Source: a virus
Direction: 5' to 3' (one strand)
Virus record (IMG/VR): IMGVR_UViG_3300048687_000056
Span: 1 to 30,222 of that record
Length of the DNA: 30,222 nt
The notes below the pieces were generated by a model. The model saw only the letters and a program-made list of their open reading frames with translations, made no database searches and was not told the origin of the DNA. Below, in pieces: positions 8,668 through 29,895 of the stretch (position 1 is the first letter of the stretch; every line of letters begins with the position of its first letter). The translations under genes and the position numbers were made by a program.

Positions 8668-8846
8668 CAGCGCATATCCTTGTTTTTAACGTCCACATTT
8701 ATCAACACATCGGTATTCTTCTGAAACGCATCTCTATCTACTTTGACTGTGATGCAATCGTCTGTCGCTATGTCATCTACTGTTTTAAACAACTCCGGCA
8801 TAGCAGTACAGCTTGTTAGTATCAGAGCTAAAAAAACCTGCTTCAT
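8667..8846 (-). CDS. 59-aa lipoprotein, candidate lysis/spanin-like
   Basis: I start the protein at the second ATG because AGAGGAAGGACAA lies immediately before it; an upstream in-frame ATG at 8870 would add eight residues that spoil the signal. The N-terminus MKQVFLALILTSC is a short signal ending in lipobox LTSC, giving a lipidated Cys13. The mature part is short and polar. The gene overlaps the ERF stop (ATGA) and the membrane peptide start (TGATG). A small lipoprotein beside a two-helix membrane protein resembles an outer spanin plus holin arrangement, but a spanin normally has Pro-rich or coiled-coil content that is not clear here. Confidence 0.55.
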   Translation of the reverse strand: MKQVFLALILTSCTAMPELFKTVDDIATDDCITVKVDRDAFQKNTDVLINVDVKNKDMR

Positions 8847-9445
8847 TTGTCCTTCCTCTTTGTATTCCACTTCTTAAATGCCGCTAGAAACTCCTCCGGC
8901 CTCTTAACTGCATCTCGCTTCAGATCCTCTATGTGTTTATCAAAAGACTTAGCACTGGCCTCCAAGAACTCTATAGCTCTCACACGCTCTTTGTCTGTTA
9001 AGTCCATAAGCACAGAATCGAAATCTTGGCACTTCTCAGGCTCATAGCACGCATTTTGGTCATGGTCTGGATCCTCACCTGTCTCTAAACAAAAAGCTTT
9101 CAGGCAGGCCATTTTAAACGCATACGATACAGCTTTGCCCGGTCCCTTGTCTCCGCTGTCGATGCCATAGCCTAGTGATCTCATGGTAAAGTGGTCTTCC
9201 GGCTTGTCTGCGTTAATGAAGTACACGAGCATTTTGACTGTCGTTCTGTTTCCGTCTTGCGTGGTCTCCTCGATGCTCGGAATAATCACAATGCCATGCT
9301 TTACAAGGAGTGGGTGTATCGCTGCGGTCACTTGGTCATGGCTTACATAGGAGTACTGCCCGTTGACCTTCTTTGCGCCCTTTTGGATGTACTTTAGTTC
9401 TGCCATTACCTTTAGTATGCGTTGATAGATATTAGTCTCTGTCAT
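8843..9445 (-). CDS. erf: ERF-family single-strand annealing protein
   Basis: 200 residues. The N-terminal half has the ERF pattern: YIQKGAKKVNGQYSYVSHD (about 18-36), a beta hairpin with TTVKMLVYFINADKPEDH, then YGIDSGDKGPGKAVSYAFK (about 93-111) and LKAFCLETGEDPD. This SGDKGxGKAxSYAxK block is diagnostic for the P22 Erf superfamily, which forms rings on single-stranded DNA and anneals strands. The C-terminal third is charged and helical. The upstream gene is an exonuclease overlapping by 14 bases, so the pair forms a two-component recombination system like Red or RecET. Host RecA independence is family knowledge, not seen. Confidence 0.85.
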   Translation of the reverse strand: MTETNIYQRILKVMAELKYIQKGAKKVNGQYSYVSHDQVTAAIHPLLVKHGIVIIPSIEETTQDGNRTTVKMLVYFINADKPEDHFTMRSLGYGIDSGDKGPGKAVSYAFKMACLKAFCLETGEDPDHDQNACYEPEKCQDFDSVLMDLTDKERVRAIEFLEASAKSFDKHIEDLKRDAVKRPEEFLAAFKKWNTKRKDK

Positions 9446-9992
9446 TATTCTTTTTCCCCTTATGAAAATAGTGCCAACAGTCTAGAGCAGCCAAGAACAC
9501 GTGCAATTCTGTGGTCATGTCGTCTAGCGAGTGTATTTTTGGATAGTCGCCTGTCTTGTCCAGATAAACCAGCATAGCCCCATCGACCTGCACGAGATGT
9601 TTGCGTAACAAGAAATCATAGGCTGCCATCTGTAACGGATATGTCTTTTGAGGTGATGCGCTTGTCTTGAGGTCAACTAGATAGAGCTTATCATCATGCC
9701 CGGCTATCACAAAGTCGAGCTGCCCAGTGTACTTCAGATCCTCATGGCAAAAACGCTTCTCGATAATTACAAACTTTTTTACCTGATCTTCTGCCCACTG
9801 ATCGAAGGAACGCACGTAACCCAAAAGCTCTTCTGATATCATGCTTTCGGGTATCCATTCTCCCTTGGCTTTCGCAGCACACAAGGCATGTACGGATGTC
9901 CCTCTTGCAGCAGCTCTTTCTAAAATATTCTCAGGAACATTGGAGTATCCCGTAAAAGGCTTAAGGATTTCTGTTACTCTAGGATAAGACAA
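9432..9992 (-). CDS. PD-(D/E)XK exonuclease (RecB/Cas4-like fold)
   Basis: 186 residues. The helix ILERAAARGTSVHALCAA (about 23-40) holds the conserved RGTxVH motif. YTGQLDFVIAGHD (about 88-100) supplies the metal-binding Asp, LYLVDLKTS (about 103-111) the D-x-K active site, and PLQMAAYDFLL (about 118-128) the Q-x3-Y helix. These are the motifs of PDDEXK nucleases used by phages to resect double-stranded ends. Directly downstream and overlapping is the ERF annealing protein, the usual partner. The start has only a weak leader; the AT-rich stretch upstream holds a likely operator. Confidence 0.85.
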   Translation of the reverse strand: MSYPRVTEILKPFTGYSNVPENILERAAARGTSVHALCAAKAKGEWIPESMISEELLGYVRSFDQWAEDQVKKFVIIEKRFCHEDLKYTGQLDFVIAGHDDKLYLVDLKTSASPQKTYPLQMAAYDFLLRKHLVQVDGAMLVYLDKTGDYPKIHSLDDMTTELHVFLAALDCWHYFHKGKKNNDRD

Positions 9993-10010
9993 TTTTTGAA
10001 ACCAAATGTA

Positions 10011-10028
10011 AAGTTAAATTTTAAACTT
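10011..10028. promoter_or_regulatory. Near-palindromic AT-rich operator candidate
   Basis: AAGTTAAATTTTAAACTT lies in the 131-base divergent gap between the exonuclease gene (leftward) and the RHH regulator gene (rightward). Its outer arms AAGTT and AACTT match and the core is AT-only. On the leftward strand a TTGCAC box about 17 bases from a TAAGTT would place the palindrome over a -10 region. The neighbouring RHH protein is an obvious candidate binder. No footprint evidence; composition alone could produce the symmetry. Confidence 0.35.
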
Positions 10029-10123
10029 AACATTTCATATCATAAAGTGCAAATTTTATTGTTATTATTCGACCTAAAGATTATTTTGTATAGTTTCTAC
10101 GTATTTATTAAGAGGCACTAAGC

Positions 10124-10546: not shown

Positions 10547-10879
10547 ATGGGTAAAGAAAAGAGTACTTCGATTTATTTTGACCGTGTATCTAACCGTTTT
10601 GTCGGCCTCAATGACTCAATCTATCGCAGTCTAAAAGCCGCTCATACAAACATAGATATAGATGAAGAGCTAGGTAAAATGGTTCTTTGGCTTAACTCTC
10701 CTAAAGGGCAGAAGCGCAAGGGAACCTACAATTTTATCCTCAATTGGCTCTCAAATTCACGGCCACGCAAGTTACAAGAAACTCCCAACCTTACTCTCCT
10801 TTCAACGCTACAAGAATATCGCAAAGGTTTATGGAAAGGCAGGGAACACATACTAGCACTAAACAAGCAGAGGAGCTAG
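10547..10879 (+). CDS. Phage replication accessory protein with FILNWL domain
   Basis: About 110 residues from the second in-frame ATG. An upstream ATG at 10475 would add 24 hydrophobic residues; neither start has a clear Shine-Dalgarno, so the start is uncertain. The body DRVSNRFVGLNDSIYRSLKA, then IDIDEELGKMVLWLNSPKGQ and GTYNFILNWLSN, matches a small domain in which an F-x-G strand, a W-L-x-S-P segment and an NWL helix recur. It is commonly found at the C-terminus of phage replication O-like proteins. It overlaps the helicase start by 49 bases, pointing to a helicase loader or partner role. Confidence 0.55.
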   Translation: MGKEKSTSIYFDRVSNRFVGLNDSIYRSLKAAHTNIDIDEELGKMVLWLNSPKGQKRKGTYNFILNWLSNSRPRKLQETPNLTLLSTLQEYRKGLWKGREHILALNKQRS

Positions 10880-11733
10880 AGGCGTTTTTACAGTTCGGCA
10901 AGGCAACAAGTCATGCGCCCAATTGTATCACACCCCTCGCAAATCTCCCAATCGACTACAGACAGGAAATTGATCGAGGCTTTTCTACTGGCTGGGAGTG
11001 CTTAGATATGTACCTGCAGGGTTTACGCAAGGGAGAGATGACGGTCGTAACAGCAGACACTGGAGCAGGCAAGACCAGTTTCTGTACGCACTTATTAGTC
11101 AACTGTGCGATGCAAAACGTTCCTGTATGGATAAATAGCTGGGAAATGAAACCAGAAATAACCATGCGAAAGATAGCCTCTATTCTACTCCGAAAGCCCA
11201 TGAAGTTACAACGGTTCAGCCTGGCAGAGAGCGAGGAATTTGACAAGTTCGCCCGGCATTACAAGATCTACATCAACCCCCACACTATCGGCACTGACAT
11301 CAACTCACTTAGCCAGCAACTCATCATAGCCAAACGAATAGGCATAGAGATCGTTATGCTTGACCACCTTGACTATCTCGTTAGCTCGAAAAAAGAGAAG
11401 ATGCACGAAGCGATAGACGAAACAATTAAAAAACTGCACGAACTGGCTTTTGCTCTCGACATGCACTTTGTACTGATCTGCCACCCTAGACAAACTTTTG
11501 ACGGCAAAGAAGAGATCGGGATGCACTCGCTTAAAGGTTCGTCATCAATCAAACAGTACGCTGACAACATTATAACCCTCCATCGCTGCTCAAGAACCGA
11601 TGCACAAGCTGATCCGAGCAAGGTAAAGATCAAGGTCTGCAAGAACCGGCTCTTTGGTATCGAGGGCGTGACCTATCTGTACTATCAAGCTTCATGGGAC
11701 GGCTACTTAGAGCTAAAGGAATTTATGGAATGA
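10831..11733 (+). CDS. DnaB/Twinkle-like replicative helicase (RecA-fold)
   Basis: About 300 residues from the ATG at 10831, which follows GCAAAGG; an earlier ATG at 10744 would overlap the previous gene by 136 bases. Walker A TADTGAGKT lies at about residues 74-82, Walker B IVMLDHLDYL at about 174-183, then ICHPRQ (sensor/H3) and the H4 loop region SLKGSSSIKQYADNIITLHR near 233-252. These are the motifs of the DnaB/T7 gp4 helicase family that unwinds DNA at the fork. The N-terminal DnaB domain and primase domain are absent, so this is a minimal motor. Overlap with the preceding small gene suggests coupling. Confidence 0.85.
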   Translation: MERQGTHTSTKQAEELEAFLQFGKATSHAPNCITPLANLPIDYRQEIDRGFSTGWECLDMYLQGLRKGEMTVVTADTGAGKTSFCTHLLVNCAMQNVPVWINSWEMKPEITMRKIASILLRKPMKLQRFSLAESEEFDKFARHYKIYINPHTIGTDINSLSQQLIIAKRIGIEIVMLDHLDYLVSSKKEKMHEAIDETIKKLHELAFALDMHFVLICHPRQTFDGKEEIGMHSLKGSSSIKQYADNIITLHRCSRTDAQADPSKVKIKVCKNRLFGIEGVTYLYYQASWDGYLELKEFME

Positions 11734-12741: not shown

Positions 12742-13334
12742 TCAGGCAGCAAAAGATCTTAGAGTCTGGTGCAGTAGAGGCCATGCTGGAGCTACCCGGG
12801 GAGCCTATGATCTATAGCATTAAGTATAGCATAGGCAACAGGTCTCACCATGCTCAATTCTTTCGTAATAACAAATGGAAGTCCCTGCTTAAGTGCTTTT
12901 TCCGTGCGTTTATGAAGACCGAAGTGCCTGTCGTGCTGAATGTGACCTTTTACTTAACTCCCCCTGAGAAAGAGAAGGTCAGTGCAAGAGAGTTGAAGCT
13001 AGAGAAGCGCCCGGCAGTAAGGAGCTTTGAGCTGTGCGAGTACCTGCTTTCATTCCTAGAGCTATTGATGCACGTGCTAATTAACTCCTATAGGCAAGTA
13101 GTCAAGATTGAGACAGCCAAATTCTATAGTGCGAACCCGAGAACCGTTTTTAAGTTTATGAGGTATGAAGAACATGTTTACCTGCAAAATAAAGATCCCA
13201 ATAACTCCAAAAGCCAAGCAGGTGATAAAGCAAGGCAGGTTCGGCAATCGGTACAACCCAAGCAGCAGAAGCATGGGAGAGCTAAAAAAGTGTGTAACAA
13301 AGCTCTTGAAGGGTGCGAAGCTGCCACTAACTAA
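12723..13334 (+). CDS. RusA-fold paralogue without catalytic aspartates
   Basis: 203 residues if translation begins at the TTG preceded by GAAGAGGTAGA; an ATG at 12783 is an alternative. Residues about 68-147 follow the RusA layout: a strand (VPVVLNVTFYLTPP), a Lys-Arg-Pro (95-97), a helix, and IETAKFYSANPRTVFKFM, which parallels the Lys-containing strand pair of RusA. At the places where RusA has DxDN and DD this protein has AVRSFEL and INSY, so it lacks the metal ligands. The last ~55 residues overlap the true RusA gene in another frame and are basic. It may be a structural or regulatory partner, or an inactive duplicate. Confidence 0.5.
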   Translation: MGLKQIIRQQKILESGAVEAMLELPGEPMIYSIKYSIGNRSHHAQFFRNNKWKSLLKCFFRAFMKTEVPVVLNVTFYLTPPEKEKVSARELKLEKRPAVRSFELCEYLLSFLELLMHVLINSYRQVVKIETAKFYSANPRTVFKFMRYEEHVYLQNKDPNNSKSQAGDKARQVRQSVQPKQQKHGRAKKVCNKALEGCEAATN

Positions 13335-13674
13335 AAACGCTCTTCTTGTGATTGTCCATTGTAAGATACCTGTTCCTCTATCATTCAGGCAACACAAACG
13401 GGACAAGATGCACAACTTTCCTCACGTGAAGAGACCTGACGGAGACAATTTAGAAAAGTTTATTAATGACGCTCTCAAGGGTGTTCTCTGGCATGACGAC
13501 TCTTCAATCACTTGGATGCTGAGAAGCAAGACCCTGACCAAAGAAAAGAAAGGGGAGATCATTATCTTTATTAGAGAGCTTGAAAACAACTCAGCTCCTA
13601 ACTATGACCAAATACTAAACGATATAACAAACAATATTAACTTAAACTATGAGGTACATGATGAAGCTTCTTGA
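13165..13674 (+). CDS. rusA: RusA-like Holliday junction resolvase
   Basis: 169 residues (or 166 from the fourth-codon ATG, which has GAGGT better spaced). RPDGDNLEKFINDALKGVLW at about 90-109 carries D92, D94, N95 and K98, followed by HDDSS with D111 and D112. These are the acidic and lysine residues that RusA dimers use to cut four-way junctions. The final strand EIIIFIREL is also typical. It would trim branched replication or recombination intermediates before packaging. It overlaps the RusA-like paralogue by 170 bases and the next gene by about 14-26. Confidence 0.85.
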   Translation: MKNMFTCKIKIPITPKAKQVIKQGRFGNRYNPSSRSMGELKKCVTKLLKGAKLPLTKNALLVIVHCKIPVPLSFRQHKRDKMHNFPHVKRPDGDNLEKFINDALKGVLWHDDSSITWMLRSKTLTKEKKGEIIIFIRELENNSAPNYDQILNDITNNINLNYEVHDEAS

Positions 13675-13876: not shown

Positions 13877-14039
13877 CTTCTCTGAGTCTGTTTATGTTAT
13901 CCTAGGTATCGACATACACGAGAATGATAGGGTCCTCTGTGTGTGTCGTACCTATGAAGAGGCTAGAAGATACTGTATTGAGTTGGTGCCAGAAACTGAA
14001 TACTACGATCTTTGGGTCGAGAAACACGCTATTCTTTAG
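13839..14039 (+). CDS. Small hypothetical protein, YVI..D.....EEA..Y type
   Basis: 66 residues. After a basic start, INFSESVYVILGIDIHENDR, then RTYEEARRYCIELV and YYDLWVEKHAIL make a strand-helix-strand unit common among small phage proteins. GTG at 13863 is an alternative start. It closes the rightward block and overlaps the convergent recombinase by 11 bases. Confidence 0.5.
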   Translation: MNKRRRKKVSVINFSESVYVILGIDIHENDRVLCVCRTYEEARRYCIELVPETEYYDLWVEKHAIL

Positions 14040-14943
14040 CTGCTTGTTTCTGTCTAGGGTGAAACTGCTTAAACATCTCTTGCATCTTGTTACTGGAAAG
14101 GTGCGTGTATCTCTGTGTTGAAGCAATCGAGCTGTGACCTAAAACCTCTTGTATCAGTCTCAAGTCCGCTCCGCTGTCAAGCAAATGGGTAGCGCAAGCG
14201 TGCCGGAGTGTGTGGGTAGTAACGCCATGCACTCCAACTTTTGCGGCATACTCACCTACTAGAGAACAAAGTAACTGCCTTTTGATCTGTTTCCCCATTA
14301 ACGTAACAAACAGCCACTTAGATTCATCCTCTTGTCTGTAAGTCGCTACGTAGTTAGTTATCTCATCTTGTGCTTCCTCTGTGATTGGCACGGTTCTTGT
14401 TTTGCTTCTTTTTCCGCATCTAATAATAATACAATTGCCTCGCCAGTCTTCAAGCTCCAAGTCACACAGTTCGCTAGCCCTCAAGCCTGACGAGTATAAC
14501 AAATGCAACATCGCCCGGTCTCTTACTCCGCTTTCAGTCTCATCACTTGGGGCGCTTAGTATCCTGTCTATTTCATCCTGTGACGGTACATAGGGCGCCT
14601 TGATTGAGCTCTTAGGTGGTGTTATGTCTTCAGTCAAGTCAGAGGTTACAAGCTTGTTTTTCCGCAGAAACTTGCAATAGCTCTTAATCGACATGAAATA
14701 ACGGTGTATGCTTGAATCGCTCTTCCCTCTCCGCTTGCACACCCCTAGATAGTCAATGATGTGTAGAGGTTTTAAAGTCGTTACACTCCGTAGCTTCTTT
14801 TCACTCACATAGACCAAGAAGTTTGTTAGGTCAAGCCCGTATGCCTCAATGGTCGGGGTGCTTTTGCTTAAAGACAACTCATTCAGAAAGCTCGATAGGG
14901 TCTGTTGTGCCCAGTTCGAAAGTGGTCGGGTTTGATTTATCAC
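14029..14943 (-). CDS. xerC-like: Tyrosine recombinase, XerC/XerD-like
   Basis: 304 residues, the normal length for XerC/D. The core-binding domain occupies about 5-105, and the catalytic domain about 118-304. It shows R155 (SGLRASELCDL), a Lys in CGKRSKTRTVP (178 or 181), H244 and R247 (HTLRHACATH), H270 (VLGHSS) and nucleophile Y279 (RYTHLS). All active residues are present, so it should cut and rejoin DNA through a 3' phosphotyrosine. In a phage-plasmid it could resolve multimers, or integrate into the host dif site as IMEX-type phages do. It is the last gene of the leftward block and overlaps the small protein gene before it by 65 bases. Confidence 0.9.
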   Translation of the reverse strand: MINQTRPLSNWAQQTLSSFLNELSLSKSTPTIEAYGLDLTNFLVYVSEKKLRSVTTLKPLHIIDYLGVCKRRGKSDSSIHRYFMSIKSYCKFLRKNKLVTSDLTEDITPPKSSIKAPYVPSQDEIDRILSAPSDETESGVRDRAMLHLLYSSGLRASELCDLELEDWRGNCIIIRCGKRSKTRTVPITEEAQDEITNYVATYRQEDESKWLFVTLMGKQIKRQLLCSLVGEYAAKVGVHGVTTHTLRHACATHLLDSGADLRLIQEVLGHSSIASTQRYTHLSSNKMQEMFKQFHPRQKQAAKE

Positions 14944-18372: not shown

Positions 18373-18816
18373 ATGAAGGGGCGTAAATTGAGCTTCCTAG
18401 AGAGACAAGCGAAAATCGAACAGGAAGCAAGCGAAAGAAGGAAAGTTTTCAAGGAACTCCTAACACATGTGTCGATGGGGTATAGTTTAGATTGTTTTGA
18501 ACCGATGAGTGTAACGACGATTAAGAAGTATCTAAAAGTCTTCAAAGAGGAGTTTATTGAGGAGGAACTTGAGCAAGCTATGAGGCAAGGCAAAAACTAC
18601 TGGGAAGGCTTAGGGCGGAGTCAGTCTAACGGTAGTTGTCTTGGCAACTCTCGGTCTTGGTATTACAATATGGCTAATCGGTATGGCTGGAGAGAGAAAC
18701 TTGATATAGAGGCCGAACACAAAGGCAATGTGCAAGTAAATATAGTCAGCTATGCACGGGGTCAAGCATCCAGTGATAGCAAGACAAGCCCTAGCGATAG
18801 CCAAGAAGCACAATAG
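18373..18816 (+). CDS. terS: Terminase small subunit
   Basis: 147 residues. After a basic helix, LLTHVSMGYSLDCFEPMSVT (about 29-48) followed by IKKYLKVFKEEF is an HTH-like DNA-binding unit. Then comes the string QGKNYWEGLGRSQSNGSCLG (about 72-91) and SWYYNMANRYGWREK (about 94-108) that typifies podovirus small terminases, ending with a beta strand VQVNIVSY and a disordered Ser-rich tail. TerS recognises the packaging site and loads TerL. It is isolated from TerL by about 8.6 kb, and is followed by the largest non-coding region of the window. AAAGGGGGGTGT gives the start signal. Confidence 0.8.
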   Translation: MKGRKLSFLERQAKIEQEASERRKVFKELLTHVSMGYSLDCFEPMSVTTIKKYLKVFKEEFIEEELEQAMRQGKNYWEGLGRSQSNGSCLGNSRSWYYNMANRYGWREKLDIEAEHKGNVQVNIVSYARGQASSDSKTSPSDSQEAQ

Positions 18817-22815: not shown

Positions 22816-23520
22816 TTATGGTAGCTCTTTAACCAGATTGATTGTGATACTTGCAGATGTGATAGGATAAGCAAGTTCAGGATGAATAGCGTTTAATACT
22901 AAGCCAGAGGTCATGTTGATGTTTCTTAGTCTTAAAACATCTCCAGCTTGTACTTCCAACGCTTTTACCATGACTGTGTTTTCTACTTGGTCATCAGGTG
23001 ATTGGGAAAAACCAGACTCACCAGTGCCATTTACAAACACACCATTGAGAAAAAGAGCCGCAGCCCATACAGGAACAGGTGAAGGAAAGGGAGGCTGAAG
23101 TCTTGCTTGTAAGTTAGCGAATACATTATAGATACCGTGCTTGAGAAACTTGATCTCTCCTAACAAAGCAGCATTAGAAGTATCAAAGTCTCCTGAATTC
23201 ACTCCATCAACTTCAAAGGTAGCATAGTCCGCACCCAAGTTGTATGGCGCTAACAGTTGGTTTTGCTCTGAGAACACGTTGAGGTAGCCAGCTTCGCACT
23301 TTCCATGATGACCTTCGCAATCCATACCCTTCGGACCCATCGGACCTCTTGGGCCTTGAATCCCGTCTTGTCCTTGGATACCTTGTGCTCCGGATACCCC
23401 TTGAACACCTTGTGGGCCTTGGTCGCCTTTCGGTCCTTGTGGCCCCTCTTGACAATACCAGCATCTACAATCGTGATGTTTGTCGTGGTGATGATTTTCT
23501 TTATATTCGTCTCTACACAT
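22816..23520 (-). CDS. Collagen-like protein with His/Cys-rich N-terminus and beta C-terminal domain
   Basis: 234 residues. Residues 1-25 are rich in His and Cys ([14 protein letters not shown]), a likely metal-binding or cross-linking patch. Residues about 26-65 hold 13 Gly-X-Y triplets (such as [23 protein letters not shown]). The rest, about 80-234, is a beta-rich domain similar in outline to the C1q/TNF-like or BclA C-terminal heads that trimerise collagen stalks ([32 protein letters not shown]). It should form a trimeric stalk with a globular head, possibly an adhesin or a particle decoration. It leads a leftward unit, with AGGAGCTTCTAT before the ATG and its own promoter. Confidence 0.8.
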
Positions 23521-23886: not shown

Positions 23887-23971
23887 AGATTAACTGCTAC
23901 TTCCTATCTGCTATGTTCTATATTGAATTAGGGCATAGTATAGCTAAAAGAAACCGGAAAAGAAAATCGAC

Positions 23972-24046
23972 CGAGACTATGAAGGATCCGCGGCCTCACT
24001 GAATCGGCCTTACCTTCACAGTCTCGATCTTACCTTCATTTTTTTC
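23972..24046. ncRNA. Nested long hairpin in the divergent gap, possible structured RNA
   Basis: The 340-base gap 23829-24168 has no gene. CGAGACTATGAAGG (23972-23985) pairs with CCTTCACAGTCTCG (24013-24026) with a single mismatch over 14 bases. Inside, GGCC (23992-23995) and GGCC (24006-24009) pair again. Rightward, a run of seven Ts follows after 13 bases; leftward, T-rich TCGATTTTCTTTT follows. TTACCTTC recurs at about 24010, 24030 and 24139. It may be a terminator, a small RNA, or a cruciform operator between the two divergent units. Confidence 0.45.
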
Positions 24047-24168
24047 GCTTGTCAAGTCTTTTCTTCATCCCTTCCCTACTTTTTTTATTTTATCGCATTT
24101 TGTTTAGTCTAAGTGATAGACATAAGAGGCATTAAGATTTACCTTCCTTGTTTATTTTATGGTAAGAA

Positions 24169-24384
24169 ATGCAAACACGAAGACATTTGCTAATAAAGTT
24201 TGGAGCAATGGTAAGGCTGAGGAGATATGCTATTGGTCTTACACAACTTAAACTGGCAGAAATGGTTGGATGTAGCTTGCAGGCCATAGGGAACTTAGAA
24301 AGAGGTGTTGCAAATCCGAGCTTGATTATGATATATCGCATAGCTGAAGCATTAAATATACCACCTAGAGACTTGATTCCTTGA
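24169..24384 (+). CDS. XRE-family (Cro/C1-type) regulator
   Basis: 71 residues, a single helix-turn-helix domain: VRLRRYAIGLTQLKLAEMVG (about 15-34), CSLQAIGNLERGVANPSLIM (about 35-54), and YRIAEALNIPPRDLIP. This is the compact Cro-like form with no sensor domain. It is divergent from the zinc-finger gene across a structured gap and next to the EUO-like gene, so it probably acts in the latency switch. The ATG lacks a clear Shine-Dalgarno. Confidence 0.85.
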   Translation: MQTRRHLLIKFGAMVRLRRYAIGLTQLKLAEMVGCSLQAIGNLERGVANPSLIMIYRIAEALNIPPRDLIP

Positions 24385-24446: not shown

Positions 24447-24866
24447 ATGGTTATGAGTAATAATTTTGTATCAGTAGTTGAGGCAGCGAGAATACAAGGG
24501 GTAAGCAGACAGGCTATCTACCTTGCTATAAGACTTATTCGACTCGGATCCTACAAGAATGGCAATAAGGTTAGAATCTTCCTGCAAGACTTAGATGCCT
24601 ACAACCAGAAAAAGTGGAATAGGGTCTATCATTCGACACTGCATAACGGAAAGCCTATATATAATGAGAATGAGGGATATTTTAGCGTAGACAAGGCAGC
24701 AGCTCTATTAAACATGTCAAAACAGAAAGTCTACTATGCTATCCGAACTAAAAAGTTAAAAGCGTCTAGGTGTCGTTGTGCTTTAGTCGTACATGTTAAT
24801 GACCTCTTCATCTATCAAAAGAAATATCTAAAACACAACTTTACAAACCAAATCAGTGTTGCATGA
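24447..24866 (+). CDS. euo-like: EUO-like double excisionase-type HTH regulator
   Basis: 139 residues. The N-terminal unit VSVVEAARIQGVSRQAIYLA (about 8-27) and a second unit YFSVDKAAALLNMSKQKVYY (about 78-97) are two excisionase/MerR-like helix-turn-helices. They are joined by DLDAYNQKKWNRVYHST and a short linker with G-x-P/L-x-Y/F-x-N. The arrangement, with RQAIY...AI, DL..Y, and YYAIRTKKL..., then VVHVNDLFIYQKKYL, closely recalls the chlamydial protein EUO, which binds and represses late developmental genes. The main difference is shorter termini. AAAAGGAAAA precedes the ATG. If correct it ties the element to Chlamydiota and could let it read or imitate host developmental control. Confidence 0.6.
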   Translation: MVMSNNFVSVVEAARIQGVSRQAIYLAIRLIRLGSYKNGNKVRIFLQDLDAYNQKKWNRVYHSTLHNGKPIYNENEGYFSVDKAAALLNMSKQKVYYAIRTKKLKASRCRCALVVHVNDLFIYQKKYLKHNFTNQISVA

Positions 24867-25850: not shown

Positions 25851-26504
25851 ATGATAGTAGTAGTAGGTGGGATCAAAGGTGGGTCAGGTAAAACGACTTT
25901 GGCGACAAACTTGGCTGTAATGAGGTCAAGCGATGGTCATAAGGTTTTGTTAGTAGATGCGGATGAGCAGAAGTCGGCATCGGATTGGTCGGAGCAGAGA
26001 GAAGGCTTAGGCATAAAAACAGATTGGACTACGATTCAGTTAGCAGGCAAGGCAGTCAATCTACAGTTACAAAAGATGGGTGCGGACTACGACGATGTGA
26101 TAGTAGATGTGGGTGGCCGGGATACGACTAGCCAGAGAAGCGCACTAACGATAGCAGATGTTTTTTTAGTTCCGTTTAAGCCAAGGAGTCTAGATATTTG
26201 GACGATTGGAGCTGTTAAAGCCATGATCTCTGAGATAAAAATAGTGAATCCTCAACTGCAATGTATAACGGTAATTAATCAAGCAGATTCGAGGGGTACA
26301 GACAATAACGAAGCATTAGAAGTGTTAAAAGAGTGTCCAGAGTTGATATGTTGTGAGCATTCTATAGGATACAGGAAAGTTTTTGGGAATGCTGCTGCGG
26401 ATGGGATGGGGATATGCGAACTTTTGCCTCTAGATAATAAGGCGGTACATGAGATGAAACTGCTTTACTATTCCGTATATAGCCCGTGTTTATTAAGCAA
26501 TTAG
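25851..26504 (+). CDS. parA: ParA partition ATPase (type Ib, no HTH domain)
   Basis: 217 residues. Deviant Walker A KGGSGKTT at 9-16 with signature lysine K9, Walker A' VLLVDADEQKSASDW with D36 and D38, and Walker B DDVIVDVGGRD with D86. The short N-terminus, directly at the Walker A motif, means a type Ib ParA that forms gradients on the nucleoid to position plasmids, working with a small RHH centromere-binding partner. The partner gene lies 36 bases downstream. The stop codon lies within an iteron. A cellular MinD/Soj role is less likely in this setting. Confidence 0.88.
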   Translation: MIVVVGGIKGGSGKTTLATNLAVMRSSDGHKVLLVDADEQKSASDWSEQREGLGIKTDWTTIQLAGKAVNLQLQKMGADYDDVIVDVGGRDTTSQRSALTIADVFLVPFKPRSLDIWTIGAVKAMISEIKIVNPQLQCITVINQADSRGTDNNEALEVLKECPELICCEHSIGYRKVFGNAAADGMGICELLPLDNKAVHEMKLLYYSVYSPCLLSN

Positions 26505-26756: not shown

Positions 26757-27024
26757 GAACGAGATAAATAGCTTCCTAACGGTATGGGGCTCGGAGGAAT
26801 TGACATCTTTTTTACAGGATGCTCTTCCTCTGTTTGAGCTATACGATGTAGATGAAAACAATGACTGGGTAGAGGATGTCGTAGGGAAGGATAACGTTCT
26901 GAATGTGAGGCTAATCAGGACTGTCTACTTGTTGTCTCGGTTGGCTGCACATCATGCGGAAGGTTTGAGTAAACTAGATAGTAGGTTTAAAGACTTGTGG
27001 AAGAGGATGGAGGAATATGGATAA
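26746..27024 (+). CDS. Hypothetical helical protein with GTG start
   Basis: 92 residues from the GTG after AAAGAGAATGC, 11 bases before the previous stop. Acidic and helical: NSFLTVWGSEELTSFLQDAL, then a DVDENNDW loop and LIRTVYLLSRLAAHHAEGLS. C-terminal KDLWKRMEEYG. It belongs to the small set between partition and terminase and is not recognised. Confidence 0.55.
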   Translation: MSIENEINSFLTVWGSEELTSFLQDALPLFELYDVDENNDWVEDVVGKDNVLNVRLIRTVYLLSRLAAHHAEGLSKLDSRFKDLWKRMEEYG

Positions 27025-27151
27025 GAAGATCAAGAAGCTACAGAAAGATACTAAGAAGCTAGAGAAGCAAGAAGCTAGTCTATTAAAAGAAGATAAGAAG
27101 AGAGATAAGGTATGTGAGTACGGAGAGAAAATGATGAAGAAGAAGAAATAG
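27017..27151 (+). CDS. 44-aa Lys/Glu-rich coiled-coil microprotein
   Basis: MDKKIKKLQKDTKKLEKQEA, then SLLKEDKKRDKVCEYGEKMM and KKKK. The K-LEK/LLKEDKKRDK string recurs in tiny proteins near terminase genes of tailed phages. Preceded by GGAGGAAT, and its start overlaps the previous stop. Possibly a DNA-binding or assembly-factor peptide. Confidence 0.65.
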   Translation: MDKKIKKLQKDTKKLEKQEASLLKEDKKRDKVCEYGEKMMKKKK

Positions 27152-27454
27152 ATGAGTGAAATAAGATACGTACCTAAAGAAGTGTTGGATAAACTGAAGG
27201 ATTGCTTTTGTGATCTGGAAGAGTTGATGGATTTTGTCGTGCAGCTAGAAGTCATCGGAGAGGAAATAAGTTTTATCGCGAAACTGAAAGAGCGCTTGGA
27301 TGACGAAGACCACTACAAAAGCTGCATGGGACAAGTGGGTGTTTTTACTCTGTTTTGCCGGGATTACTTTGACGTGTTAGTGCAGTTAGTAAAGATGATT
27401 GAATGGAAGCTAATGACTGAGGATGAATTTAACAATACAGGCAAAGATGAATGA
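27152..27454 (+). CDS. Hypothetical helical protein before terL
   Basis: 100 residues, mostly helical: VPKEVLDKLKDCFCDLEELM, then FVVQLEVIGEEISFIAKLKE and FCRDYFDVLVQLVKMIEW. Starts directly after the previous stop and overlaps the terL start by four bases (ATGA). Because it sits immediately before terL it takes the place normally held by terS, but lacks the terS pattern, which is at 18373 instead. Confidence 0.55.
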   Translation: MSEIRYVPKEVLDKLKDCFCDLEELMDFVVQLEVIGEEISFIAKLKERLDDEDHYKSCMGQVGVFTLFCRDYFDVLVQLVKMIEWKLMTEDEFNNTGKDE

Positions 27455-28782
27455 GCAAGATAACGATACCCTACGGATATGAGCCAAGACACTATCAACT
27501 TAACATACTAGAGGCACTGGACAGCGGAGTTAGGAATGCTTGCTGGGTTGTACATCGACGAGGTGGGAAGGATACGACCATGTGGAACTATATGATTAAG
27601 AGGGCCTACTTGGAGCCGGGAACTTACTACTACTTTCTGCCTAGTTTCGCCCAGGCCAAGCGAGTTCTCTGGGATGGTATGACTAACGATGGAAAACGGA
27701 TGCTTGATTACATTCCGAAAGCGGTGATTGATGGCAACCCAAACAACACTGAAATGAAGGTTTGGATCAACGGTGCTAGGGGTCAATCGTTGGTGCAGTT
27801 GATAGGTGCGGATAGCTACGATAGCATAATGGGAACAAACCCTAGAGGCGTAGTGTTTAGCGAGTGGAGTCTGATGGATCCTATGGCCTACGACTTTGTT
27901 AAGCCTATCCTTGCTGCTAATGGTGGATGGTGCGCTTTTATCTATACTCCTCGTGGCAAGAATCATGGCTGGGACTTGGCTGAGATAGCGAGACTTAACC
28001 CTAGCGAGTGGTTTTATGAAGTGCTTACCGTGCGAGATACCGGAGTGCTTACCGAAGACCAAATTGAGTCCGAGCGTAGAAAGGGTATGCCGGAAGATAT
28101 GATCCAACAAGAATTTTATTGCAACTTTAACCGTGGACAAGAGGGATCCTACTATGGCAGACAGATAGAGGAGCTGCGAAAGAAAGGCCAAGTGTGCAGC
28201 GTACCCTATGATCCTGCTGTGCCCGTGCGTACCTACTGGGATTTGGGCATAGGAGACTCTACAGCTATTTGGTTTGCGCAGTTTGTTGGCAAGGAAATAC
28301 ATCTCATCCATTACTACGAAAACTCGGGTGAAGGATTAGCTCACTATGCACGGATACTTGATGATTACCGTCGTGAAACTGGATGCGTATATGATCTGCA
28401 CGTAGCTCCACATGACATTCAAGCTCGGGAGTTAACAACAGGTCAGACAAGACTACAAACAGCTCGTCGCTTAGGGTTGAACTACCGTGTTGCGCCAAAA
28501 CTGAGCTTAGAGTCTGGGATAGAAGCTGTACGTATGACTCTCTCAAGATGCTGGTTTGATGGAAAGAAATGCGAACACGGGATAAAGTGTCTGGAGAACT
28601 ACCGGAAGCAGTATAATGAGAAGTTTCGGGTCTACGGGGATAAACCTTTTCACGACTATACGTCTCACGGGGCTGATGCCTTCCGAATGCTTGCGATAAC
28701 TGAGTCTCAATTTCGTCCGGATCAGGGAGTGAGTGATTCTGACTACGATCACATGAAGCATCTATGGGGTTGGAAAGCTTAG
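27451..28782 (+). CDS. terL: Terminase large subunit (packaging ATPase and nuclease)
   Basis: 443 residues, a normal length. The ATPase Walker A variant HRRGGKDT lies at 35-42. The Walker B-equivalent GVVFSEWSLMDP at about 133-144 keeps catalytic Glu138 but has Ser137 where many terminases have Asp. The nuclease half starts at YWDLGIGDSTAIWF (about 262-275; D264, D269), then HLIHYYENSGEGL, and a late HGADAFRML (Asp about 409), as expected for an RNase H-like nuclease. TerL pumps DNA into the prohead and cuts concatemers. The gene ends at the convergent Rep-side region. Confidence 0.92.
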   Translation: MSKITIPYGYEPRHYQLNILEALDSGVRNACWVVHRRGGKDTTMWNYMIKRAYLEPGTYYYFLPSFAQAKRVLWDGMTNDGKRMLDYIPKAVIDGNPNNTEMKVWINGARGQSLVQLIGADSYDSIMGTNPRGVVFSEWSLMDPMAYDFVKPILAANGGWCAFIYTPRGKNHGWDLAEIARLNPSEWFYEVLTVRDTGVLTEDQIESERRKGMPEDMIQQEFYCNFNRGQEGSYYGRQIEELRKKGQVCSVPYDPAVPVRTYWDLGIGDSTAIWFAQFVGKEIHLIHYYENSGEGLAHYARILDDYRRETGCVYDLHVAPHDIQARELTTGQTRLQTARRLGLNYRVAPKLSLESGIEAVRMTLSRCWFDGKKCEHGIKCLENYRKQYNEKFRVYGDKPFHDYTSHGADAFRMLAITESQFRPDQGVSDSDYDHMKHLWGWKA

Positions 28783-28867
28783 TTATTTGTTCTCCTAGGC
28801 TTTGCAATCTGTCATTTATTGCTCTAAAGGTTTCCGTAAGCTCTTCACTCGTATAATAGTCGTTCAT
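28304..28867 (-). CDS. Doubtful leftward ORF largely antisense to terL
   Basis: 187 codons from an ATG preceded by CAGGGATAT. The first 33 residues lie outside terL and look coding (DYYTSEELTETFRAINDRLQ, then SLGEQITKLSNP, a likely coiled coil). The remainder is antisense to terL and has the Ser/His/Leu-rich composition of a shadow frame. It may be a genuine small gene with an altered 3' end, or chance. It is the only candidate in the 147-base gap 28783-28929. Confidence 0.25.
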   Translation of the reverse strand: MNDYYTSEELTETFRAINDRLQSLGEQITKLSNPIDASCDRSQNHSLPDPDEIETQLSQAFGRHQPRETYSREKVYPRRPETSHYTASGSSPDTLSRVRISFHQTSILRESYVQLLSQTLSSVLAQHGSSTLSDELFVVLSDLLLTPELECHVELRADHIRIQFHDGNHQVSVHSELILHPSFRSNG

Positions 28868-28929: not shown

Positions 28930-29895
28930 CTAAATCTGTATGCCGCATTTATTTAAAATCTCAGTGAATTCGTTAACAAAATTCCTGGAGTCATGCCTAA
29001 CTGTATATGCTGTATATTGACCTTGACTACAAAGACTTACGCCAACATTATCAGAAACAAACTCGTATCCATTATAGGTCTGGAACTTCACAAACTTTGA
29101 TAGCAACTGTTCTTTCTTACTCATCTTGGCTACCGGGTTGTCTAGATTATCAATAGTCTCGGCAAAACTCTCTGGGTTCTTCAAAATGAATTGCATGTAC
29201 TTGAGTCTTCCGATAGGGCCGCCTTCCGTCTTCGTGCTTGGGTGATAGACGAGCTTGACTGCCCGATCGACTTCCTGCTCGGGATATTTCATTAGCAGTC
29301 GTTTTTGTGAGTCGGAGAAGTCATCACAATTCTTAAGAGAAGAATAAATAGAAAAATTATTATTGCCGTTAGGCTGCTTTGGTTTATCCGGTTCTTTTGG
29401 TGGCTCGTTTGGTTGCGCAATAATAATATGTTCTTTCTTAGGAGATATTATTTCTTCAGATGTTCTTTCTTTACTATCCTGATTTTCCGTATACTGGTCA
29501 CCCGTATCCTGAAAATCAGTAAGTCGAAAACATTTCTTGAATTTAGGCTCTTCACTCAAAAAATATCTATATCGTTTCATGTTGTTTTCAGTATAAGTTT
29601 CTCTCTTCATATATCCAAACTCAATGGCTTCAGTTATAATATTATACATAGCATCTCTGCCAATATGTTCTTTGAATTCATTGACTAGTTGAGGTACTCT
29701 AATATTCCATCCGTTTTGATTAGACAGTAGAAAGATAATAACCATCCGGCAATTCGGGGAAATTCTTTTGTCTCGGATCAGAGAATTGCGTACCATAGTA
29801 TACGGATTTTCTTTGTCGTGCGGACATCTTTCAATTGTGTCGCCTTCGAAGCGAGTATATTTTTTTGAGGATTTTTTTTGAGATTGAGTTTCCAT
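28930..29895 (-). CDS. Winged-helix replication initiator-like protein (Rep)
   Basis: 321 residues. After a basic tail, about residues 30-125 hold a winged-helix domain (MVRNSLIRDKRISPNCRMVI, then NGWNIRVPQLVNEFKEHIGR and IITEAIEFGYMKRETYT), seen in replication initiators and phage replisome organisers. A Pro/Lys/Asn-rich linker (about 160-180, PNEPPKEPDKPKQP) leads to a helical C-terminal domain (about 195-321). The two-domain layout is that of DnaD/RepA-like initiators that bind iterons and recruit the helicase. AAAGGAAATCCAA precedes the ATG. It stands alone, leftward, next to iteron-like repeats and an RNA gene, consistent with the plasmid Rep. A plain phage regulator is the alternative. 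Confidence 0.6.
   Translation of the reverse strand: METQSQKKSSKKYTRFEGDTIERCPHDKENPYTMVRNSLIRDKRISPNCRMVIIFLLSNQNGWNIRVPQLVNEFKEHIGRDAMYNIITEAIEFGYMKRETYTENNMKRYRYFLSEEPKFKKCFRLTDFQDTGDQYTENQDSKERTSEEIISPKKEHIIIAQPNEPPKEPDKPKQPNGNNNFSIYSSLKNCDDFSDSQKRLLMKYPEQEVDRAVKLVYHPSTKTEGGPIGRLKYMQFILKNPESFAETIDNLDNPVAKMSKKEQLLSKFVKFQTYNGYEFVSDNVGVSLCSQGQYTAYTVRHDSRNFVNEFTEILNKCGIQI

Follow-up and report, generated by a model that had tools for sequence, protein, structure and literature searches.

A phage-borne variant of the chlamydial regulator EUO in tailed phages that probably infect chlamydiae

Euo is described in the literature as a vertically inherited protein, as the one conserved transcription factor found in Chlamydiae alone, and as the master regulator of the chlamydial developmental cycle (PMC4989314, PMC8242063). 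The question raised by the locus treated here is whether a member of this family can also be carried by a virus and, if so, what it would do there. The window, meaning the whole stretch of DNA that was analysed, is an entire IMG/VR record of 30,222 bases without an end repeat, in which an open reading frame (ORF) at 24447-24866 (+) encodes a protein of 139 amino acids. A sequence-only reading had taken this protein for an EUO-like developmental regulator on a phage element. In the open-licence literature, a search on chlamydiae, phage and EUO returned no report of a phage-borne EUO by title or abstract.

The features on which that reading was built are all present. It had proposed two excisionase-like helix-turn-helix (HTH) units, and both Pfam HTH_17 (54.1 bits) and the NCBIfam "excisionase family" profile TIGR01764 (47.6 bits) match the ORF in two stretches; the DL..Y region and the YYA-R-KKL and V-HV strings are found in the protein as L46-QDLDAY-52, YYAIRTKKL (96-104) and VVHV (114-117). 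An HMM trained on chromosomal EUOs only (118 proteins, none from phages) scored the ORF at 124.6 bits (E 1.6e-36, 11,284 six-frame ORFs), over residues 4-135, which take in both HTH units and the linker, and matched no second ORF anywhere in the window. Generic profiles reach 54 bits at most on the same ORF. Loci retrieved from chlamydial genomes by the generic TIGR01764 profile, used as excisionase-family decoys, peak at 12.7 bits with the chromosomal-EUO HMM, and the proposed EUO identity is borne out by this comparison. The C. trachomatis EUO sequence taken as a lead is 34% identical to the window protein over 127 residues, the linker between the HTH units included, and identity to environmental chlamydial EUOs rises to 46%. 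This lead sequence has a 99% identical counterpart in a 1.04-Mb genome, a gene flanked by gltX and recJ, the known context of euo; with this match and this position, the EUO reference is real. The ORF product is an EUO-family variant that a phage carries, and its membership of that family, on a tailed phage, is well supported.

The predicted structure agrees with the domain assignment. In the AlphaFold2 model (mean pLDDT 87.5, the winged HTH (wHTH) units mostly above 90), the first unit (residues 7-55, 24465-24611, +) is made up of E7-9 H10-17 H21-29 E36-38 E41-45 H46-55, and the identical order of elements is repeated at residues 78-127 (24678-24827, +), so that the second HTH is present in the model, with confidence, while the mutual orientation of the domains is uncertain (pTM 0.57). 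A model of chlamydial EUO has a matching series of elements, and Foldseek gives the two models the same top match, TraN for the chain, and single-unit matches in common to BldC, RacA, RdfS and Pukovnik Xis. DNA binding of Waddlia Euo is impaired in the triple mutant Y31A/R47A/Y100A (PMC4989314). The corresponding residues of the window protein are Y25 and K41 in the first unit and Y96 in the second. Both tyrosines are kept in all 14 phage proteins and in all 118 chromosomal rows, and the spacing of 69 residues between Y31 and Y100 is also that from QAIY to the first tyrosine of YYA in the chromosomal proteins checked; the R47 position holds R or K in 7 of the 14 phage proteins. Conservation in phage EUO is highest in the recognition helices, where identity to the chromosomal consensus is 78% and 54% against 41% for the remainder; since these helices have stayed nearer to host EUO than other parts of the protein, a related DNA specificity is suggested.

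The claim that the gene lies on a phage element has also held up, with phage genes around it and the gene kept in related phages. A terminase large subunit (27451-28782, +) defines the phage clade, with about 39 relatives at 75-91% identity, many of them in records of 38-41 kb. Because the relative G236 (39,251 bases) runs collinear with the window and continues past the window's right end with genes for portal, major head and tail proteins, the window represents only part of a tailed-phage genome of about 40 kb and lacks most of the head module. Further genes encode an Erf-like annealing protein (8843-9445, -), a PD-(D/E)XK exonuclease (9432-9992, -), a RusA-like resolvase (13165-13674, +), a replication-initiator-like (Rep-like) protein (28930-29895, -) and a collagen-like, tail-associated protein (22816-23520, -), as well as, by family matches, a DnaB-like helicase (10744-11733, +), an XerC/D-like tyrosine recombinase (14029-14943, -) and a ParA partition ATPase (25851-26504, +). 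A clade-conserved protein (18373-18816, +), which has homologues in 30 phage loci and no PHROG or Pfam family match, is possibly the terminase small subunit. In addition, an ORF on the strand opposite the terminase 3' end (28304-28867, -) has tblastn homologues in 41 phage loci and may be a gene overlapping the terminase or may merely reflect how well the terminase is conserved, and the relative G236 has an RNA ligase-like gene between ParA and terminase (L313, 3658-4614). EUO is otherwise chromosomal, and chlamydial plasmids also carry ParA and integrase genes (PMC7846284), as would fit a piece of chlamydial chromosome or plasmid misclassified as viral; however, the window encodes terminase, Erf, exonuclease and RusA, its gene order matches that of a 39 kb relative equipped with portal, major head and tail proteins, and its EUO gene has neighbours other than gltX and recJ, so that such a misclassification is hardly credible.

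The XerC/D-like recombinase bears on a different reading, in which the protein would be a recombination directionality factor, or excisionase, for that XerD-like enzyme, and would resemble EUO through the shared excisionase superfamily. The HTH_17 and TIGR01764 domains of the ORF agree with this, as does the likeness of the single wHTH units to Xis structures (Pukovnik Xis, TM 0.80; RdfS). However, an excisionase role is unlikely, because the recombinase lies 9.5 kb from the EUO gene in the window and is retained in relatives that lack EUO; two fused wHTH units joined by the EUO linker are atypical of Xis, and the EUO profile gives the ORF 124.6 bits against at most 12.7 for the excisionase-family decoys. 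Integrated copies of the phage clade, moreover, were not found among the chlamydial genomes searched, and DnaB, the Rep-like protein, ParA and the recombinase would together suit an episomal phage, or phage-plasmid.

The gene is not universal in these phages. Situated upstream of the terminase gene, it is present in 8 of the 19 clade records of at least 36 kb and missing from the other 11, so EUO is not essential to them. A second, diverged lineage of EUO-bearing phages, with terminases 46-49% identical to that of the window, has the order exonuclease (-), small HTH gene (+), EUO (+), RusA (+) in some, and terminase (+). These relatives surfaced only by way of the terminase clade, as the phage EUO protein alone as query found none in viral contigs or annotated phages; among plasmids there was none at relevant similarity, with one weak match to a Rhodococcus HTH protein.

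As the phages carry their own EUO, the clade probably infects chlamydiae. Of the 234 Chlamydiota genomes, 211 have EUO. Among GTDB contigs a scan picked up 177 EUO relatives; the best 80 all bear the titles of chlamydiae or of MAGs labelled Verrucomicrobia or "bacterium", and one genome so labelled (L058, identical to G006) is in the Chlamydiota set. A 14.7-kb contig of the second lineage with EUO and terminase (G042:C232) sits in a chlamydial genome bin that has a chromosomal-type EUO of its own on a separate contig, and another chlamydial bin (G129) holds a contig of 40.7 kb, without EUO, on which a related terminase (43%) is accompanied by a collagen-like homologue of the window's protein at 40% (E 5e-47). 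These MAG contigs and the Chlamydiota counts make a chlamydial host likely. No member of the window's clade was found in the sequenced chlamydial genomes (best terminase 49%), the clade-specific protein at 18373 is absent from all 234 chlamydial genomes, and binning errors could explain the MAG phage contigs. Searches of plasmids with DnaB, XerD, Rep and ParA revealed no connection to chlamydiae. As for a CRISPR-like or DNA-identity link to a host, the 33-bp matches in G209 are A/T-rich and were taken as chance, and the better matches fall within the genes for the recombinase, ParA or terminase, or within a lysine-rich reading frame. Such a lysine-rich frame at 27013-27155 (+), just upstream of 27152, has 71% DNA identity to the G129 phage contig. 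It was also seen that some chlamydial chromosomes have two EUO genes close together (e.g., G006, G124, G125, G127 and G147, and further G148, G159, G160 and G164), in contrast to the usual account of Euo as a conserved, vertically inherited single regulator.

The relationship between phage and chromosomal EUOs was addressed with an LG+G4 tree of 55 rows, in which the 14 phage proteins and the 41 chromosomal ones fall on opposite sides of a branch with support of 98/87, subject to the caveat of long phage branches. In a mixture-model tree, unfinished and with runaway branch lengths, this split takes three changes, and the second lineage and one odd sequence fall among the chromosomal rows; the LG+G4 tree was preferred. 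Given the long branches and the conflicting unfinished tree, a single origin of the phage EUOs is likely but not certain, and an attempt to root the EUO tree by its own two halves gave no root. The phage EUOs stand apart from all chromosomal EUOs as an old group of their own and are not recent pick-ups from a single host. The window gene, by its phage context, its place outside the chromosomal clade and its lack of gltX and recJ flanks, is not the orthologue of chromosomal euo.

The surroundings of the gene speak to its regulation. A Cro/CI-like HTH_3 repressor gene (24169-24384, +; PF01381, 3.8e-14) lies 62 bp upstream of EUO and has homologues of 56-63% identity at the equivalent position in related phages; EUO directly follows such a same-strand gene in the window and in four phages (L002, L003, L004 and L013), and the Cro-like and EUO genes may be inferred to form an early regulatory operon. 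In the second lineage the small HTH gene overlaps the start of EUO, and some EUO-bearing phages are without an HTH_3 neighbour. At one locus without a Cro-like gene (L034, 5393-5886, +), two short genes, one antitoxin-like and one for a RelE-like toxin, recognised by eye, stand upstream of EUO. A 22-bp element, TAGTYTANTTGGTATAYTTTAG, resembling an extended -10 promoter plus an additional conserved box, occurs as a single copy per genome on the EUO strand, 280-520 bp upstream, in five EUO-bearing phages, one of them without the Cro-like gene, and is absent from nine phages lacking EUO and from 1.66 Mb of chromosomal sequence; having been discovered in the same data, it draws its weight from this uniqueness and placement. 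The window has a degenerate copy (16/22) at 24105-24126 (+), a weak assignment, within which is the palindrome GTCTA-N5-TAGAC (24107-24121). The Cro-like/EUO operon is separated from the leftward genes by a region with a stable hairpin followed by a T-run (23969-24029, +; z = -3.0), where terminator calling gave no terminator and which may be terminator-like or structural; repeats of TTACCTTC are found in this region at 24010, 24030 and 24139.

This arrangement would also suit a regulator of lysis and lysogeny, of the kind of CII or a partner of Cro, that has kept the EUO fold but acts on phage promoters only and leaves host development unaffected. The adjoining Cro/CI-like gene in the window and the four phages, the small HTH gene preceding EUO in the second lineage and the phage specificity of the promoter-like element are all points in its favour. 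On the other hand, recognition helices nearer to host EUO than the remainder are unexpected if specificity were drifting freely, and the HTH_3 neighbour is missing in some of the phages concerned, which leaves a purely phage-directed switch with a modest chance of being right.

Whether the phages contain sites of the Euo type was approached with the published Waddlia 15-mer, allowing up to three mismatches in intergenic DNA. The EUO-bearing phages show a mild enrichment, with 23 matches against 13.1±3.2 expected, and the phages without EUO show none, with 11 against 9.2±3.0, the expectation being that of a dinucleotide shuffle, used because permuting the motif breaks A-tracts and overstates enrichment. 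The sites lie near EUO or ParA in some phages, with no constancy of place; those in intergenic DNA of the window are upstream of the Rep gene only, and minimal Euo boxes are nowhere significantly clustered in the window. Binding of phage EUO to Euo-type sites is, on these counts, plausible. In the A/T-rich divergent promoter region at 9993-10123, between the exonuclease gene (-) and a ribbon-helix-helix gene (+), there are five weak 15-mer matches (four mismatches) and eight minimal boxes against 4.1 expected.

The best explanation, held at a probability of about 0.6, is that the window encodes an early phage regulator of the EUO family, with a likely chlamydial host, Euo-type sites and a coupling to development. 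Phage EUO would be an early transcription factor that most likely reads Euo-type sites, with its two wHTH units binding A/T-rich boxes in clusters as host Euo does, and that most likely controls its own operon together with other phage promoters. As the recognition helices are best conserved, it would probably also read, or compete for, the Euo sites of the host, whereby late phage expression would be coupled to the replicating stage of the host, or that stage held. Such phages may steer or follow the developmental switch of the host, and the coupling is an attractive inference. A protein that instead occupies Euo boxes as a decoy, or mixes with host Euo as a dominant negative, relieving or blocking late-gene repression, would look the same as this early regulator by sequence. 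The fold shared with host EUO, the conserved Y25 and Y96, the altered R47 position and the dimerisation of Euo on DNA (PMC4989314) are all compatible with a decoy, a role that is nevertheless considered rather improbable. In its widest form, the early-regulator reading would have tailed chlamydial phages using EUO to read or impose the state of the host and the chlamydial regulator itself stemming from an ancient phage, the latter because the phage EUOs lie outside the all-chromosomal clade; this wider proposal is tentative. A phage-borne EUO means that the family resides on viruses too, draws attention to a tailed-phage clade whose hosts are probably chlamydiae, and raises the testable questions of whether the phage programme is tied to the RB/EB switch and where EUO originated.

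Among known systems, chlamydial EUO itself (C. trachomatis CT446, Waddlia Euo) is like the phage protein in its tandem excisionase-like wHTH units, linker and DNA-binding tyrosines, but the phage protein lacks most of the N-terminal extension, has a short C-terminus and K in place of R47, and its gene follows a Cro-like gene, whereas chlamydial euo stands between gltX and recJ. The excisionases TorI, Xis and RdfS share the fold of each phage EUO unit, but have a single wHTH and a far weaker sequence relation than EUO. BldC of Streptomyces, a developmental regulator with a MerR/excisionase-type wHTH, matches the fold with a TM of 0.77, but is a single unit, 15% identical in the structural match and without a close sequence relation. 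TraN of an Enterococcus conjugation system (PDB 4pm3, 4p0y) matches over the length of the chain, yet with a whole-chain TM of only 0.31-0.38, and is a conjugation protein. The Chlamydia phages of the Gokushovirinae (e.g., Chp2) are viruses of chlamydiae (PMC3091885) and small single-stranded DNA microviruses, whereas the phages of the window are tailed, with double-stranded DNA of about 40 kb.
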